Assembly (NCBI GenBank): GCA_026125665.1
Contig: JAHCKS010000011.1
Coordinates: 21,436-85,435 of the forward strand
Source: Rubrivivax sp.
Lineage (GTDB): Bacteria; Pseudomonadota; Gammaproteobacteria; Burkholderiales; Burkholderiaceae_C
Direction of reading: 5' to 3'
DNA length: 64,000 nucleotides
The position numbers and the translations under genes were made by a program. Below are positions 13,295-46,845 of the stretch, piece by piece. Within the stretch, counting starts at the first letter, position 1, and each line of letters opens with the position of its first letter. A model generated the notes under the pieces. It saw only the letters and a list, made by a program, of their open reading frames with translations, did not search any database and had not been told where the DNA came from.

Positions 13295-15022
13295 ATGGCG
13301 AAGATCGGCCGCCGCGCCTACGCCGAGATGTACGGCCCCACGGTCGGCGACCGGCTGCGCCTCGCGGACACCGCGCTCGTCATCGAGGTCGAAGAGGACC
13401 ACACGCTGAAGGCCGGCGGCTACGGCGAAGAAGTGAAGTTCGGCGGCGGCAAGACCATCCGCGACGGCATGGGCCAGAGCCAGCGCGCCAACGGCCCGGG
13501 CGCCGACGACGCCGTGGACACCGTCGTCACCAACGCCGTCATCGTCGACCACTGGGGCATCGTCAAGGCCGACATCGGCATCCGCGGCTGCCGCATCGCC
13601 GCCATCGGCAAGGCCGGCAACCCCGACGTGCAGCCGGGCGTGGACATCGTCATCGGCCCGGGCACCGAGGTCATCGCGGGCGAGGGCATGATCGTCACCG
13701 CCGGCGCCATCGATTCGCACATCCACTTCATCTGCCCGCAGCAGATCGACGAGGCGCTGGCCAGCGGCGTGACGACGATGTTCGGCGGCGGCACGGGCCC
13801 GGCCACCGGCACGCTCGCCACCACCTGCACGCCGGGGCCGGCGAACCTGGCGCAGATGCTGCGCGCCGCCGACGCCTTCCCGATGAACCTGGGCTTCCTC
13901 GGCAAGGGCAACGCATCGCGGCCGCAGGCGCTGATGCAGCAGGTCGAAGCCGGCGCCGTCGGCCTGAAGCTGCACGAGGACTGGGGCACCACGCCGTCGG
14001 CCATCGACACGTGCCTGGGCGTGGCCGAAGCCACCGACACGCAGGTGTCGATCCACTCCGACACGCTGAACGAATCGGGCTTCGTCGAGGACACGATCGC
14101 CGCGACGAAGGGCCGCACGCTGTGCGCCTTCCACACCGAAGGCGCCGGCGGCGGGCACGCGCCGGACATCCTGCGCGTGGTGGGCGAGGCGAACTTCCTG
14201 CCCTCCTCCACCAACCCGACGATGCCGTACACCGCCAACACGGTGGACGAGCACCTGGACATGCTGATGGTCTGCCACCACCTCGATGCGTCGATCGCCG
14301 AGGACCTGGCCTTCGCCGAGAGCCGCATCCGCAAGGAGACGATCGCCGCCGAGGACGTGCTGCACGACCTGGGCGCCATCAGCATGATGAGCAGCGACAG
14401 CCAGGCGATGGGCCGCGTCGGCGAAGTCATCATCCGCACCTGGCAGACGGCGCACAAGATGAAGGTGCAGCGCGGTGCGCTGCCGGGGGACGGGCCGCAC
14501 AACGACAACGCGCGCGTCAAGCGCTACGTCGCCAAGATCGGCATCAACCCGGCGCTGGCCAACGGCCTGGCGCACGAGGTCGGCAGCATCGAGGTGGGCA
14601 AGTGGGCCGACCTCGTGCTGTGGAAGCCGGCGCTCTTCGGCGTCAAGCCGAGCCTGGTGCTGAAGGGCGGCTTCATCGCGCTGGCGGCGATGGGCGACGC
14701 CAACGCCAGCATCCCGACGCCGCAGCCGGTGCACTACCGGCCGATGTTCGGCAGCTACGGCGGCGCGGTGGCGCGCGGCTCGCTCACGTTCATGAGCCAG
14801 GCGGCGGTGGCCGCGAGCGTCGCTCAACGGCTGAAGCTGCAGAAGACGGTGAGCGCCGTGCGCGGCTGCCGCACGGTGAAGAAAGCCGACATGGTGCTGA
14901 ACGCCTACACGCCGCGCATGGAGATCGACGCCCAGACCTACGAGGTGCGCGCCGACGGCATCCTGCTCGGCTGCGAGCCGGCCACGGAGCTGCCGATGGC
15001 GCAGCGGTACTTCCTGTTCTGA
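13295..15022 (+). CDS. ureC: Urease subunit alpha (catalytic)
   Basis: The 575-residue catalytic subunit. Nickel-site motifs are all present: [10 protein letters not shown] (two metal histidines), [12 protein letters not shown] (the lysine that is carbamylated to bridge the nickels), [10 protein letters not shown] and [15 protein letters not shown] (further histidines, with the flap following) and [10 protein letters not shown] (aspartate ligand). ATG 13295 with GGAG 9 nt upstream gives the normal [19 protein letters not shown] opening. It follows the palindrome pair and is followed by ureF. Confidence 0.98.
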
Positions 15023-28118: not shown

Positions 28119-30032
28119 TCAGCCCTGCTGCAGCAGGCCGGCGACGCGCTCGCGCAGCAGCGCCGGCGACACCTCGGCCGCCGGCACCGCCGGCCCGGCC
28201 GCCAGCCCCACCGGCGTGAACAAGCCGCGGCGGAAGGGTTTCACCATCGCCACGCCCTTCTCGACGCGCGAGAAGAACGAGCCCCACAGGTTCGTGAGCG
28301 CCAGCGGCACGACCGGCACCGGGTGCGTGGCCAGCACCTTCATCACGCCGCCCTTGAACTCGGCCAGCTCGCCGTCGCGCGTCAGGCCGCCTTCGGGGAA
28401 GATGCACAGCAGGTCACCTTCGTCGAGCACCTTGCGCGCCTCGGCGAACGCGCGTTCGTAGGTCGCCGGGTCCTCGCGTTGCGGCGCGATCGGGATCGCC
28501 TTGCCGAGCCTGAACAGCCAGCCGAGCACGGGAATCGCGAAGATGCGGTGGTCCATGATGAAGCGGATCGGCCGCGGGCTCGCCGCCATCAGCAGCACCG
28601 CGTCGACGAAGCTGACGTGGTTGCTGACGAGGATCGCCGCGCCCTCGGCGGGGATGTGCGCCTCGCCGCGCACGCGGAAGCGGTAGACGAGGTGCGTCAG
28701 CACCCAAGCGAGGAAACGCAGCAGGTACTCCGGCACGAGCAGGAAGATGTACACGGCGACGACGGCGTTCAGCAGCCCGACGACGAGGAAGACCTCGGGA
28801 ATGGTGAAGCCGAGCTTGAGCAGCAGCCCGACGCCGAGCGCGCTGGCGATCATGAACAGCGCATTGAGGATGTTGTTCGCGGCGATGATGCGCGCGCGGT
28901 GCGACGGCTGCGCGCGCAGCTGGATCAGCGCGTACATCGGCACGCTGTACAGGCCGGCGAAGAGGGCGAGCAGCGCCAGGTCCATCAGCACGCGCCAGTG
29001 CGCCCAGGCCTCGGGGCCGGCCGTGAACTGGCCGATCGTCCACGCTGCGGCCGGCGCCGGCAGCCCGCGCGCCGCGAAGTAGAGATCGACCGCGAAGACC
29101 GTCATGCCGAACGCGCCCACTGGCACGAGGCCGATCTCCACGTGCCGGCGGCTCAGCGTCTCGCACAGCAGCGAGCCGATGCCGATGCCCACCGAGAACA
29201 CCACCAGCAGCAGCGACGCGACGTGCTCGTTGCCGTGCAGCACGTCCTTCGCGAAGGCCGGGAAGAGGCTCAGGAAGGCCGCGCCGAAGAACCACATCCA
29301 CGAGATGCCGAGGATGGAGCGGAAGAGCACCACCTGCTCGTGCGCAAGCTTGAGGTTGCGCCAGGTCTCCGAGAACGGGTTCCAGTTGACGACGAGCCCC
29401 GGCGCCGTGGCCGCCGTGGCCGGGATCCACTGCGCCACCACGCGCCCGGCCACCGCGAGTGCCAGGCTCGCGAAGGCCACCGCCCTGGCGCTCGGCAGCC
29501 AGTGGTCCTCGGGCAGCGAGACGAGGATGCCACCCACCACGTTGCCGAGCAGGATGGCGACGAAGGTCCCCATCTCGATCATGCCGTTGCCGCCGGTGAG
29601 CTCGCGCTCGCCGAGGTGCTGCGGCAGGTAGGCGTACTTCACCGGGCCGAAGAGCGTGCTGTGCAGCCCGAGGCCGAAGATGCAGAACAGCAGCAGCGGC
29701 ACGTTCGTCGTGAACAGGCCCGCGGCGCCCAGCACCATGATGCCGATCTCGAGGTTCTTCACCATGCGCGCGAGCATCGCCTTGTCGTACTTGTCGGCGA
29801 GCTGCCCGGCGGTGGCCGAGAAGAGCAGGAACGGCGCGATGAAGACGGCGCCGATGACGAGCCCGGCCATGGCCGGCGGCATCCAGCTCACGCTCAACCG
29901 GTAGGTCACCAGCATCGTGAACGCGAACTTGAACACGTTGTCGTTGGCCGCGCCGAGGAACTGCGTCCAGAAGAACGGCGCGAAGCGGCGCTGCGACAGC
30001 AGCGCGAACTGGTTCGGGTGCGGGTCGGCCAT
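28119..30032 (-). CDS. LplT-type MFS transporter fused to PlsC acyltransferase
   Basis: A 637-residue inner-membrane fusion. Residues 1-430 are a 12-helix major facilitator of the lysophospholipid transporter (LplT) type. The C-terminal 200 residues are a 1-acyl-glycerol-phosphate acyltransferase with the HX4D motif in NHVSFVD (about 470) and FPEGGLTRDG. It resembles the N-terminal two-thirds of E. coli-type Aas/LplT systems but lacks the acyl-ACP synthetase domain. The likely role is flipping and reacylation of lysophospholipids, inferred from the family. It is 113 nt from the aminotransferase. Confidence 0.87.
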   Translation of the reverse strand: MADPHPNQFALLSQRRFAPFFWTQFLGAANDNVFKFAFTMLVTYRLSVSWMPPAMAGLVIGAVFIAPFLLFSATAGQLADKYDKAMLARMVKNLEIGIMVLGAAGLFTTNVPLLLFCIFGLGLHSTLFGPVKYAYLPQHLGERELTGGNGMIEMGTFVAILLGNVVGGILVSLPEDHWLPSARAVAFASLALAVAGRVVAQWIPATAATAPGLVVNWNPFSETWRNLKLAHEQVVLFRSILGISWMWFFGAAFLSLFPAFAKDVLHGNEHVASLLLVVFSVGIGIGSLLCETLSRRHVEIGLVPVGAFGMTVFAVDLYFAARGLPAPAAAWTIGQFTAGPEAWAHWRVLMDLALLALFAGLYSVPMYALIQLRAQPSHRARIIAANNILNALFMIASALGVGLLLKLGFTIPEVFLVVGLLNAVVAVYIFLLVPEYLLRFLAWVLTHLVYRFRVRGEAHIPAEGAAILVSNHVSFVDAVLLMAASPRPIRFIMDHRIFAIPVLGWLFRLGKAIPIAPQREDPATYERAFAEARKVLDEGDLLCIFPEGGLTRDGELAEFKGGVMKVLATHPVPVVPLALTNLWGSFFSRVEKGVAMVKPFRRGLFTPVGLAAGPAVPAAEVSPALLRERVAGLLQQG

Positions 30033-44034: not shown

Positions 44035-44172
44035 GGACGGTCTCCTCGGCGATGTGGGGGGCGCAGGCGTCGGATCGGCGAACGACCGGGGCGCGACGAT
44101 AGCGCAGCCGCCGCCGCGGGCGCGCCTGGCGCCGTGAGGGCGGGACGCTGCGCTAGAATGCGCGCCGCTCGT

Positions 44173-44248
<76 letters not shown>

Positions 44249-44288
44249 GTCACTACCAATGCGCCGTCTTCATCCGATCGGCGAACCG

Positions 44289-44504
44289 ATGTCCATCGTC
44301 GTCCACTACTGCGCCGCTTGAGGCTACAAACCCGAAGCCCTCCGTGTGAAGGCTTGGTTTGAGTCCCACGGGCGCGGCCCCGTCGACGTGCAGGTCGGCA
44401 AGTCCGGCCAGTTCGACGTCGTCGTCGACGGCCGGCTCGCCTACTCGCGCTACGAGACGGGACGGTTCCCTTCGGAGGCGGACCTGCAGAAGCTGGGCGG
44501 CTGA
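44289..44504 (+). CDS. Selenoprotein W-like (Rdx family) with in-frame UGA
   Basis: A 71-residue Rdx-family thioredoxin-fold protein interrupted at codon 11 by TGA (44319-44321). Read as selenocysteine, it gives YCAAUGYKPEA with the CxxU redox motif at C8-U11, which lines up with CGAUGYK of mammalian SELENOW. After the TGA the same frame keeps the family core GKSGQFDVVVDG (43-54) and SRYETGRFPSEADL up to a TGA stop at 44502. The AT-richer bases after the TGA form a hairpin (bSECIS candidate). It would act in thiol-redox defence in the cytosol. The start could also be ATG 44259, in frame. It needs SelA, SelB, SelC and SelD, not visible here. The alternative is a pseudogene by Cys-to-stop change, less likely given the exact CxxU position. 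Confidence 0.85.
44327..44361 (+). promoter_or_regulatory. Bacterial SECIS-like hairpin
   Basis: Starting five nt after the in-frame TGA, 44327-44332 pairs with 44356-44361 and 44335-44339 with 44351-44355, with a 2-nt CG bulge. The 11-nt apical loop CTCCGTGTGAA contains G and GU in the position SelB recognises. The loop G is about 23 nt from the TGA, inside the usual bSECIS window. A computed fold was not run. Confidence 0.7.
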
Positions 44505-44907
44505 CGCCCGCGCCCGGCGCCGGCACTGCGCCCGCACCGCGCAGCCGGCCCTGCAGTTGGCGCCGATCGCGCGAGCTGCAGCGAATATCATCAGCGCGTT
44601 GGTGCTCGTCGCGGCGGCTCTTCGCCAAGACAGTTCAACGGGAATCAGGGAGGGCCGGCGCCAACCGCCACGGCCCCAACCTGAGCTGCCCCCGCAACGG
44701 TAAGCGGACGGGAGCGCTCTTCGGTGCTCCCCGCTCGTGTCTGCAGGCCACTGGGTGGCGGTCGCTTCTGCGGCTGCGCCTGGGAAGGCGACACGGGTGG
44801 TCTCCGCCAGCCCGGATACCGGCCAACGAGGTGGCGCGCCGCTCGCGGCGTGCCGTGAGGTGCCGGCCGCGGGGAAGCGGCGGGCGCGCCTTTCGAGCCT
44901 TGTTCCC
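44505..44907 (+). other. Leader region of the btu operon
   Basis: This 403-nt gap between the selenoprotein gene and btuB has no supported protein. It contains the cobalamin riboswitch (44597-44828), then a GC-rich stretch with mutually complementary GGCGCGCC-like segments (about 44832 and 44881) that could be the expression platform. Confidence 0.8.
44597..44828 (+). promoter_or_regulatory. Cobalamin (adenosylcobalamin) riboswitch
   Basis: The P1 stem pairs CGTTGG (44597-44602) with CCAACG (44823-44828). Conserved parts in order: GGAATCAGGG near 44641, the B12 box CTGCCCCCGCAACGGTAAGC at 44686-44705, GCCACTGGG near 44748, GGGAAGGCG-ACACGGG near 44783 and AGCCCGGATACCGGCC at 44809-44824. It should turn down btuB and the following transport genes when cobalamin is plentiful. 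Confidence 0.95.
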
Positions 44908-46845
44908 ATGCACTCCCTGACCTCGCCTCGTGCGGCGGCGCGCGATCTCGATCACCACCGCCACGATCCATCCCGCCCGCGCCCTGCAGGGCGCCGGCTT
45001 CGCCGAGCACGCCGGCCCGCCCGGCTCGCCGCAGCGTTGCTGTTCACGGTGGCGCTCGCATCCGCGGCGCATGCGCAGACCACTGCCGCCACCGCCGCAG
45101 CCGAGACCATCGTCGTCACCGCCGGCCGCACGCCGCAACCGCTGTCGTCGGTGCTGGCCGATGTCTCGGTGCTGGACCGCACCGCCATCGAGCGCAGCGG
45201 TGCCGTCGGTGTCGCCGAGCTGCTGGCACGCCTGCCGGGCATCGAGTTCGCGCGCAACGGCGGCCCCGGCACGGCGACGACCGTCTTCATCCGCGGCAGC
45301 GAGACGCGCCACGCCGCGCTGTACATCGACGGCATGCGCGTCGACGCGCAGGGCACCGGCGGCGCGCTGTGGGAGCAGGTCCCGCTGGAGCAGATCGAGC
45401 GCATCGAGGTGCTGCGCGGCCCGGCCGCCGCGGTGTACGGCTCCGATGCCGTCGGCGGCGTCGTTCAGCTGTTCACGCGGCGCGGCAGCGGCCCGCCGCG
45501 GGCCACTGCGTCGGCGGGCGTCGGCTCGCACGACACGGCCCGCGTGCAGGCGGGCCTCAGCGGCTCGGCCGATGCCTTCGACTACTCGCTGTCGGCCTCG
45601 CACGGCCGCAGCGAAGGCTTCAGCGCACGCACGCCGGCCGTCGCCAACCCCGACGACGACGGCTGGCGCCGCAGCGCCGCGCAGGCGCGGGCGGGCTGGC
45701 AGCTCACGCCCGCGCACCGCGTCGACGCCTCGCTGCTGGCCAGCCGCCTGCGCGCGCAGGTCGACGTGTTCGACCCGGTGGCCGACGAGCTGGCGTTCCA
45801 CTCGCTGCACACCGCCAGCCTCGCCTGGCAGGGCCGCTGGTCGGCCGACACGACGAGCCGGCTGCAGGCCGGGCGCACGAAGAGCACCTACGAGTCGCAG
45901 CCGTTCTTCTTCCGCACCGAGACCACGCTGACCGACGCGACGCTGCAGCACGAGCAGCGGCTCGGCGGCCACGTGCTGACCGGCACGCTCGAGCGGCGCG
46001 AAGACGAGTTGCTGAACCCGGCGACGGCCTTCGACCCCGAGCTCGCCGGCCGGCGCCGGCAGCACGGCGTGGCATTCGGCTGGCGCACCGACCTCGGCGA
46101 CCATGGCGTGCAGCTGCACGCGCGCCACGACGACGACAGCGAATTCGGTGGCCACGCCACCGGCAGCGTCGCCTGGGGCTGGCGTTTCCTGCCGCAGTGG
46201 CGGGTCAGTGCTTCGGCAGCGACGTCGTTCCGTGTGCCGACGCTCTACCAGCGCTTCAGCGCCTTCGGCAACCCGGCGCTCGTGCCGGAGACCGGCCGCA
46301 ACGTCGAGCTGGCGCTGCGCTGGGCGGCCAGCGAGTCGCTCGACCTGGCGCTGACGGCCTGGCGCAACACGGTCAGCCGCCTCATCAACTTCGGCCCGCC
46401 CGGGCCCTGCGCCGACCCGTTCGGCTGCTACGAGAACGTCGGCCGCGCCCGGCTGCAGGGCGCGACGCTGTCGGGGCGCGCGCCCCTGGGCGGGTTCGCG
46501 CTGCGCGGCTCGTTCGACTGGCACGACCCGCGCAACCTCGACACCGACACCGTGCTGGCCCGGCGCGCGCGCCGCCTGGCCACCTTCGGCGCCGACGGCC
46601 AGTGGGCCGGCTTCGCGCTCGGCGCCGAGGTGCAGGCCGCCGGCGCGCGCTTCGAAGACGCGGCCAACCGGCAGCGCATGGGCGGCTACGCGTTGCTCAA
46701 CCTTTCCGTCGGTCGGGCCCTGATGCCGGGCCTCGTGCTCGAGGGCCGCATCGACAATGCGCTCGACAAGGCCTACGAGCTGACACAGACGTTCCAGACG
46801 GCCGGCCGCACGGCCCAGCTGACGTTGCGCTGGGTGCAGCCTTGA
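44908..46845 (+). CDS. btuB: TonB-dependent cobalamin receptor
   Basis: A 645-residue outer-membrane receptor. The leader (LAAALLFTVALASAAHAQ) is preceded by a long basic N-region. The TonB box is ETIVVTAGR, then the plug domain (VAELLARLPGIEF, VFIRGSETRHAALYIDGMRV and RIEVLRGPAAAVYGSDAVGGVV) and a 22-strand barrel to the C-terminal aromatic-type end TLRWVQP. The cobalamin riboswitch directly upstream identifies the substrate as a corrinoid. It is followed by periplasmic, permease and ATPase genes. Confidence 0.93.
   Translation: MHSLTSPRAAARDLDHHRHDPSRPRPAGRRLRRARRPARLAAALLFTVALASAAHAQTTAATAAAETIVVTAGRTPQPLSSVLADVSVLDRTAIERSGAVGVAELLARLPGIEFARNGGPGTATTVFIRGSETRHAALYIDGMRVDAQGTGGALWEQVPLEQIERIEVLRGPAAAVYGSDAVGGVVQLFTRRGSGPPRATASAGVGSHDTARVQAGLSGSADAFDYSLSASHGRSEGFSARTPAVANPDDDGWRRSAAQARAGWQLTPAHRVDASLLASRLRAQVDVFDPVADELAFHSLHTASLAWQGRWSADTTSRLQAGRTKSTYESQPFFFRTETTLTDATLQHEQRLGGHVLTGTLERREDELLNPATAFDPELAGRRRQHGVAFGWRTDLGDHGVQLHARHDDDSEFGGHATGSVAWGWRFLPQWRVSASAATSFRVPTLYQRFSAFGNPALVPETGRNVELALRWAASESLDLALTAWRNTVSRLINFGPPGPCADPFGCYENVGRARLQGATLSGRAPLGGFALRGSFDWHDPRNLDTDTVLARRARRLATFGADGQWAGFALGAEVQAAGARFEDAANRQRMGGYALLNLSVGRALMPGLVLEGRIDNALDKAYELTQTFQTAGRTAQLTLRWVQP

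Follow-up and report, generated by a model that had tools for sequence, protein, structure and literature searches.

SelW-like selenoproteins with a CxxU motif have been an established bacterial family since 2005 (excerpts of PMC1088965, PMC1794560 and PMC2398784). The bacterial members share this motif and a SECIS element that lies right after the UGA codon and has a G in its small apical loop. A 2006 survey recorded SelW-like proteins in Deltaproteobacteria, Clostridia and Symbiobacterium, and gave FdhA as the only selenoprotein of Alphaproteobacteria, Betaproteobacteria and Pseudomonadales, beside selA-selB-selC operons (excerpts of PMC1794560). The SelW of Campylobacter jejuni is, like the protein reported here, encoded by a small gene with UGA; the Campylobacter gene had been unannotated, and its read-through is shown by ribosome profiling and proteomics (excerpts of PMC11955535). 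SelW genes of Epsilonproteobacteria have been overlooked in genome annotation (excerpts of PMC4607533). Mammalian SELENOW and MIEN1 are homologous to the protein described below; eukaryotic SECIS elements are located in the 3' UTR, unlike the hairpin of the present gene (excerpts of PMC1088965). Word searches for 'SelW' in PMC5029168, PMC9312934, PMC13188914 and PMC12013277 returned no hit, and we found no literature on SelW selenoproteins in Burkholderiales; most subscription papers lay outside this search, so we do not claim that such genes are unpublished.

A further SelW-like gene with an in-frame TGA (EYCTS-TGA-GY) is located on the Thermomicrobium roseum plasmid NC_011961.1 at 408173-408391 (L144). 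The corresponding RefSeq protein, WP_012642931.1 (Rdx family protein), begins after the TGA, and its CxxU site is cut off. The initial annotation of the DNA studied here, which had been made from the sequence alone, predicted that standard gene calling would miss or truncate such genes; in this one relative, truncation has indeed occurred.

We analysed a stretch of 64,000 nucleotides from Rubrivivax sp. (contig JAHCKS010000011.1, positions 21,436 to 85,435), referred to in full as the window. Rubrivivax belongs to the Burkholderiales, which are part of the Betaproteobacteria in the older scheme. On the forward strand, the window contains a reading frame for a 71-residue protein (44289-44504) with ATG at 44289, an in-frame TGA as codon 11 (44319-44321) and a TGA stop at 44502-44504, exactly as the initial annotation had placed it. 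When read through, the frame encodes MSIVVHYCAAUGYKPEALRVKAWFESHGRGPVDVQVGKSGQFDVVVDGRLAYSRYETGRFPSEADLQKLGG, in which the annotated motif YCAAUGYK is followed by a complete Rdx/SelW core after the TGA. The Cys of the CxxU motif is codon 8 (44310-44312), and the TGA occupies the final position of the motif. With C replacing U in the query, the protein scored above the cut-offs of both Pfam Rdx PF10262 (48.6 bits, E 9.8e-13; cut-off 22.6) and TIGR02174 CXXU_selWTH (42.1 bits, E 8.1e-11; cut-off 34.2), which indicates that the frame is more than a chance opening. The score against the Campylobacter equivalog NF041051 SelTWH_Campy was 59.2 bits and did not reach the cut-off of 88. Among proteins of solved structure, those closest in sequence were C17orf37/MIEN1 (2ljk, E 2.5e-8) and mouse SelW (2npb, E 1.1e-4); the alignment with the latter paired ACGYKP with ACGYKP. 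An alternative in-frame ATG lies upstream at 44259, and comparison with the homologues favours 44289 as the probable start. No clear ribosome-binding site was seen by eye ahead of the gene, and neither a sigma-70-like promoter nor a terminator was found in window positions 44040-44700.

Among 150 genomes of the GTDB family, the window's own genome was the sole match (1/150), with no further copy at E ≤ 0.001. When the Rdx profile was run against 300 genomes of the order, 65 of them yielded 68 matches in all. One in-frame TGA was present in 13 of these matches (13 genomes, including the Rubrivivax genome itself), in each case inside YCxxUxY, and the other 55 matches were TGA-free. All 12 TGA genes besides that of the window read YC-x-x-TGA-x-Y followed by the remaining Rdx domain; they had been selected by their TGA flag, and their agreement is no test of TGA conservation. 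A scan of the contigs of named genomes was unbiased towards TGA, using two peptide patterns of which one requires Cys and the other is located after the TGA site. It yielded eight loci, three of them new, and all eight carried TGA at the site. These loci stem from metagenome-assembled genomes named Rubrivivax sp., Burkholderiales bacterium (five), Nitrosomonadales bacterium and Burkholderiaceae bacterium. Five of them (L098, L099, L101, L102 and L103) duplicate the records G250, G207, G203, G154 and G284 and were counted once, so that order search and scan together gave 16 distinct TGA-containing SelW-like sequences, that of the window included. Across 13 sequences, Y7, C8, position 11 and Y13, which surround and include the CxxU site after the first strand, are invariant. 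In a class draw of 369 genomes, a TGA match occurred in two of the 51 Rdx-bearing genomes, one being the Rubrivivax genome and the other G532, which is outside the 16-sequence set.

At the position of the TGA, 28 TGA-free Rdx genes of the order carry Cys; these controls are 28 of 30 loci fetched from the 55, the remaining two not fitting the motif search. The initial annotation had asked whether homologues carry unrelated residues at this site, and the answer is TGA in all eight scan loci and Cys in the 28 remoter genes. The Cys-type genes share the Pfam family with the window gene and have CxxC in place of CxxU. In the sequences examined, they differ from it by a YCT[QGR]C-W motif and by a C-terminal tail that is longer. 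A tree built from 45 short proteins has a single branch (support 95/96) that separates the 28 Cys rows from 17 Sec rows, the latter being the 16 sequences and that of Thermomicrobium roseum. The drawing of the tree roots six Sec rows (L048-L053) together with the Cys rows, and a single origin of Sec is therefore not shown by it. Each of the 15 pairwise comparisons among the six nearest of the 16 sequences gave a lower pN than pS for the stretch after the TGA (pN 0.13-0.24, pS 0.31-0.69); in these six, the stretch is under purifying selection.

Directly 3' of the TGA, the window sequence can form a hairpin resembling a bacterial SECIS element (44322-44365, forward strand). Its apical stem pairs 44337-44342 with 44348-44353, with one C.A mismatch, and closes an apical loop CGUGU (44343-44347). 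The 45 bases after the TGA folded with -17.6 kcal/mol (z -3.09; equalled by 1 of 200 shuffles). The same folding applied to five relatives gave z values of -0.25, -3.63, -1.66, -4.03 and -2.20; the first of these, L096, thus folds no better than its shuffles. A six-pair apical stem with a five-base loop could be placed at a constant distance from the TGA in all 16 sequences. Five or six of the six pairs are formed in every one of them, in total 86 of 96 cells, which is the best of 270 stem placements. Resampling of synonymous codons gave a mean of 65.7 paired cells (sd 3.1) and none of 1000 resamplings reached 86, the stem having been placed after inspection of these sequences and the null run at that placement only. 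The 28 Cys controls pair at only two to four of the six positions.

The apical stem also covaries. The covariation score over the 16 sequences was 0.264; shuffles gave 0.099, and none of 500 reached the observed value. Sliding the stem arms lowered the score to 0.131 or less. One pair is G-C in five, C-G in four and unpaired in seven sequences, and it is at this pair that the C.A mismatch of the window falls. Another is U-A in ten and C-G in six, and the outermost pair is unpaired in three of the 16. Two weaker measures gave less: changes on both sides occurred at 3 pairs versus 2.0 in shuffles (27 of 500 as high), and further pair types numbered 3 versus 3.0 (461 of 500 as high). The second loop place is G in all 16 sequences, and places 2-3 are GU in 13; the G is non-specific, being shared by all 28 Cys controls through a TGG codon. 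A location right after UGA and a small apical loop that holds a G are the features by which bacterial SECIS elements are defined (excerpts of PMC1088965), and the window hairpin has both.

These observations bear on whether the TGA is genuine. The assembly of the Rubrivivax genome is fragmentary (6.28 Mb in 268 contigs, 88.6% complete) and selA is missing from it, as might be expected if the frame were a pseudogene or a sequencing error in which the Cys codon of an Rdx gene had turned into TGA in this assembly. However, the identical TGA is found in 15 other distinct homologues, the sequence after it bears signs of selection, and a covarying hairpin occupies the position of a SECIS element. 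We therefore regard a pseudogene or an error as very improbable. The initial annotation had also raised the possibility that reads would show TGC or TGT; the recurrence of TGA in 15 further genomes or records makes a read error implausible.

We searched the genomes for the selenocysteine machinery. In the Rubrivivax assembly, contig C66 ends within selB, of which it holds the 3' half, and directly downstream of selB lies a tRNA-Sec gene (73.4 bits) with the anticodon UCA. The genome also encodes selD (426 bits). The search for sel genes suggested by the initial annotation was thus successful for tRNA-Sec, selD and part of selB, but selA gave no match in this 88.6% complete assembly. A second gene with in-frame TGA encodes the formate dehydrogenase alpha subunit (contig C32:3032-6138; L104, L107); the codon is embedded in TQARI-TGA-HAPTV, the Sec site of the enzyme, and folding without a shuffle control predicted a hairpin after it. 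Two profile matches place the last part of this formate dehydrogenase in another frame, which may reflect a frameshift or an assembly error.

For comparison, we chose 24 genomes: the 13 with a TGA gene, the genus mate G094, seven with Cys-type Rdx genes and three without an Rdx match. Each of the 13 TGA-gene genomes has selA or selB. In ten of them selA was above cut-off, one had a weak 22-bit piece, and two, the Rubrivivax genome and G250, had no match; G250 is 97% complete and yet contains a close TGA homologue. The SelB wing domain was found in 12 of the 13, the exception being G207. Only one (G381) of the seven genomes with a Cys-type gene alone had selA above cut-off together with SelB. 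Across the order draw, a SelB domain was present in 88 of 300 genomes, and these 88 include 10 of the 52 genomes whose Rdx matches are all TGA-free. Of the 15 genomes searched that have selA above cut-off, 12 carry selA and the SelB wing domain on one strand, with the end of selA 1.7-1.9 kb upstream of the domain, a spacing to be expected of neighbouring genes; the exceptions are G094 and G159, with the genes on different contigs, and G207, with selA and no selB match. At the usual spacing, selA of the Rubrivivax genome would fall off contig C66, and it therefore likely lies in an assembly gap, with the reservation that its genus mate G094 is among the spacing exceptions. The selB of G250 is contig-internal and preceded by a frame that looks like thioredoxin reductase by eye, so that selA of G250 must be elsewhere or absent. 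An Rfam search found tRNA-Sec in 14 of 16 selB- or selA-region loci and missed it in G250 and in G284, whose locus has about 120 bases before the contig end. In G250, a frame resembling a P4-type integrase by eye (L094:4008-5195) is situated directly downstream of selB, at the usual place of tRNA-Sec.

The absence of selA from the matches in the Rubrivivax genome, together with reports of tRNA-Sec-like tRNAs with Cys identity in other bacteria (excerpts of PMC7609411), could be taken to mean that the selenocysteine machinery is not what decodes UGA here, and that, for example, a suppressor tRNA inserts Cys or Trp. We consider this hardly credible, because the genome's own tRNA scores 73.4 bits as tRNA-Sec with the anticodon UCA, selD is present, and selA was detected above cut-off in ten of the 13 genomes with a TGA gene.

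An AlphaFold2 model of the window protein based on nine sequences had a pLDDT of 96.0 and a pTM of 0.84. Foldseek returned 22 PDB matches at E ≤ 0.001, including the SelW and SelW-related structures 2fa8, 2p0g and 2npb (mouse SelW), the putative Se-binding protein 2obk and MIEN1 (2ljk). The matches 2ojl, 3dex and 2oka, which bear structural-genomics names, we take to be of the same family. Ordinary thioredoxins appeared at E 0.018 and above. The predicted structure therefore matches the thioredoxin-like Rdx fold. In the model, strand 1 comprises residues 3-7 and the Cys-x-x-Sec pair is located at its end, which points to a small thiol/selenol redox protein; a redox role was likewise argued from the CXXU motif in the 2005 Sargasso paper (excerpts of PMC1088965). 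That the gene consists of the stretch after the TGA only, with an internal start and an untranslated CxxU part, as RefSeq annotates the Thermomicrobium roseum homologue, is the least probable explanation of all, since Y7, C8 and Y13, on either side of the TGA, do not vary among 13 sequences, and since the product would lack two elements of the predicted fold, strand 1 and the CxxU site.

Taken together, the recurrent TGA, the selection after it, the covarying SECIS-like hairpin, the presence of tRNA-Sec, selD and partial selB, the second TGA-containing selenoprotein gene and the predicted fold lead us to infer that the window gene almost certainly encodes a 71-residue SelW-like (Rdx) selenoprotein in which UGA is read as selenocysteine, as the initial annotation had proposed. 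In the mechanism we envisage, SelB would bind both Sec-tRNA-Sec (anticodon UCA) and the hairpin that directly follows the UGA, and the complex would insert selenocysteine at codon 11, so that termination would be avoided. The product would then adopt the thioredoxin-like Rdx fold, with Cys-x-x-Sec as its active site, and would serve as a small thiol/selenol redox protein.

In the 150-genome family draw, the genus of the window is represented by one further genome, G094, which has selA and selB and gave no match to a SelW gene with UGA. Directly downstream of its selB lies a tRNA-Sec (L095:7806-7898; RF01852, 67.9 bits). The anticodon of this tRNA is GCA, which reads Cys codons, instead of the expected UCA, and ARAGORN called it tRNA-Cys. 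A formate dehydrogenase gene near selB of G094 has TGC at the Sec site, and none of 57 matches of this enzyme in 300 genomes contained an in-frame stop. The SECIS-like hairpin after the TGC folded with -7.6 kcal/mol. The comparison with its homologues covered 34 stretches (32 loci; two are stray motif matches), and 12 of the other 33 folded better. Neither result singles out this formate dehydrogenase as the target of the GCA tRNA. Transfer RNAs for Sec with other anticodons, and tRNA-Cys resembling tRNA-Sec, are known elsewhere (excerpts of PMC7609411 and PMC10778597). Since the window species has tRNA-Sec with UCA and TGA in both SelW and formate dehydrogenase, while G094 has GCA and no UGA SelW, the Sec codon could conceivably have changed within one GTDB genus, with G094 inserting Sec at chosen Cys codons. 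We regard this as a doubtful, tentative reading. If it were true, the codon switch would have entailed the loss or relocation of genes, and the SelW-like Sec sub-family would count among these.

The surroundings of the window gene appear unrelated to it. A tRNA-Ala gene (CGC; 44173-44248, forward strand; ARAGORN and Rfam tRNA) precedes the ATG by 40 nt, as annotated. The examined flanks of 20 homologue loci, which amount to about 15 distinct places since five are second record copies, contained no tRNA, and with the arrangement not conserved a functional link to tRNA-Ala was rejected. Downstream, a cobalamin riboswitch (44583-44841, forward strand; Rfam RF00174, 59.1 bits) precedes an open reading frame named TonB-receptor-like by eye (44737-46845). 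From its position, the riboswitch would belong to this frame and not to the SelW-like gene, and we rejected a link of the latter to either. Frames resembling ABC transporters by eye follow this region (44583-46845). Elsewhere in the window, Rfam matched 5_ureB_sRNA (13456-13754, 110.3 bits) and Bcj11 (29238-29359, 78.2 bits) on the reverse strand. Inspection by eye of L096 and L097 revealed no conserved gene neighbourhood.

The gene described here adds to a known family; its host group, which differs from those of the SelW-like selenoproteins in the 2006 survey (excerpts of PMC1794560), is all that is new, and knowledge of the mechanism of selenocysteine insertion is unchanged by it. Its 16-sequence set provides a compact, covarying collection of SECIS elements. 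It is a further small selenoprotein gene of the kind that is missed or cut in public annotation, as in the Epsilonproteobacteria (excerpts of PMC4607533) and in Thermomicrobium roseum. Finally, it adds Sec-containing SelW-like genes to a group of bacteria for which FdhA had been the sole reported selenoprotein (excerpts of PMC1794560).
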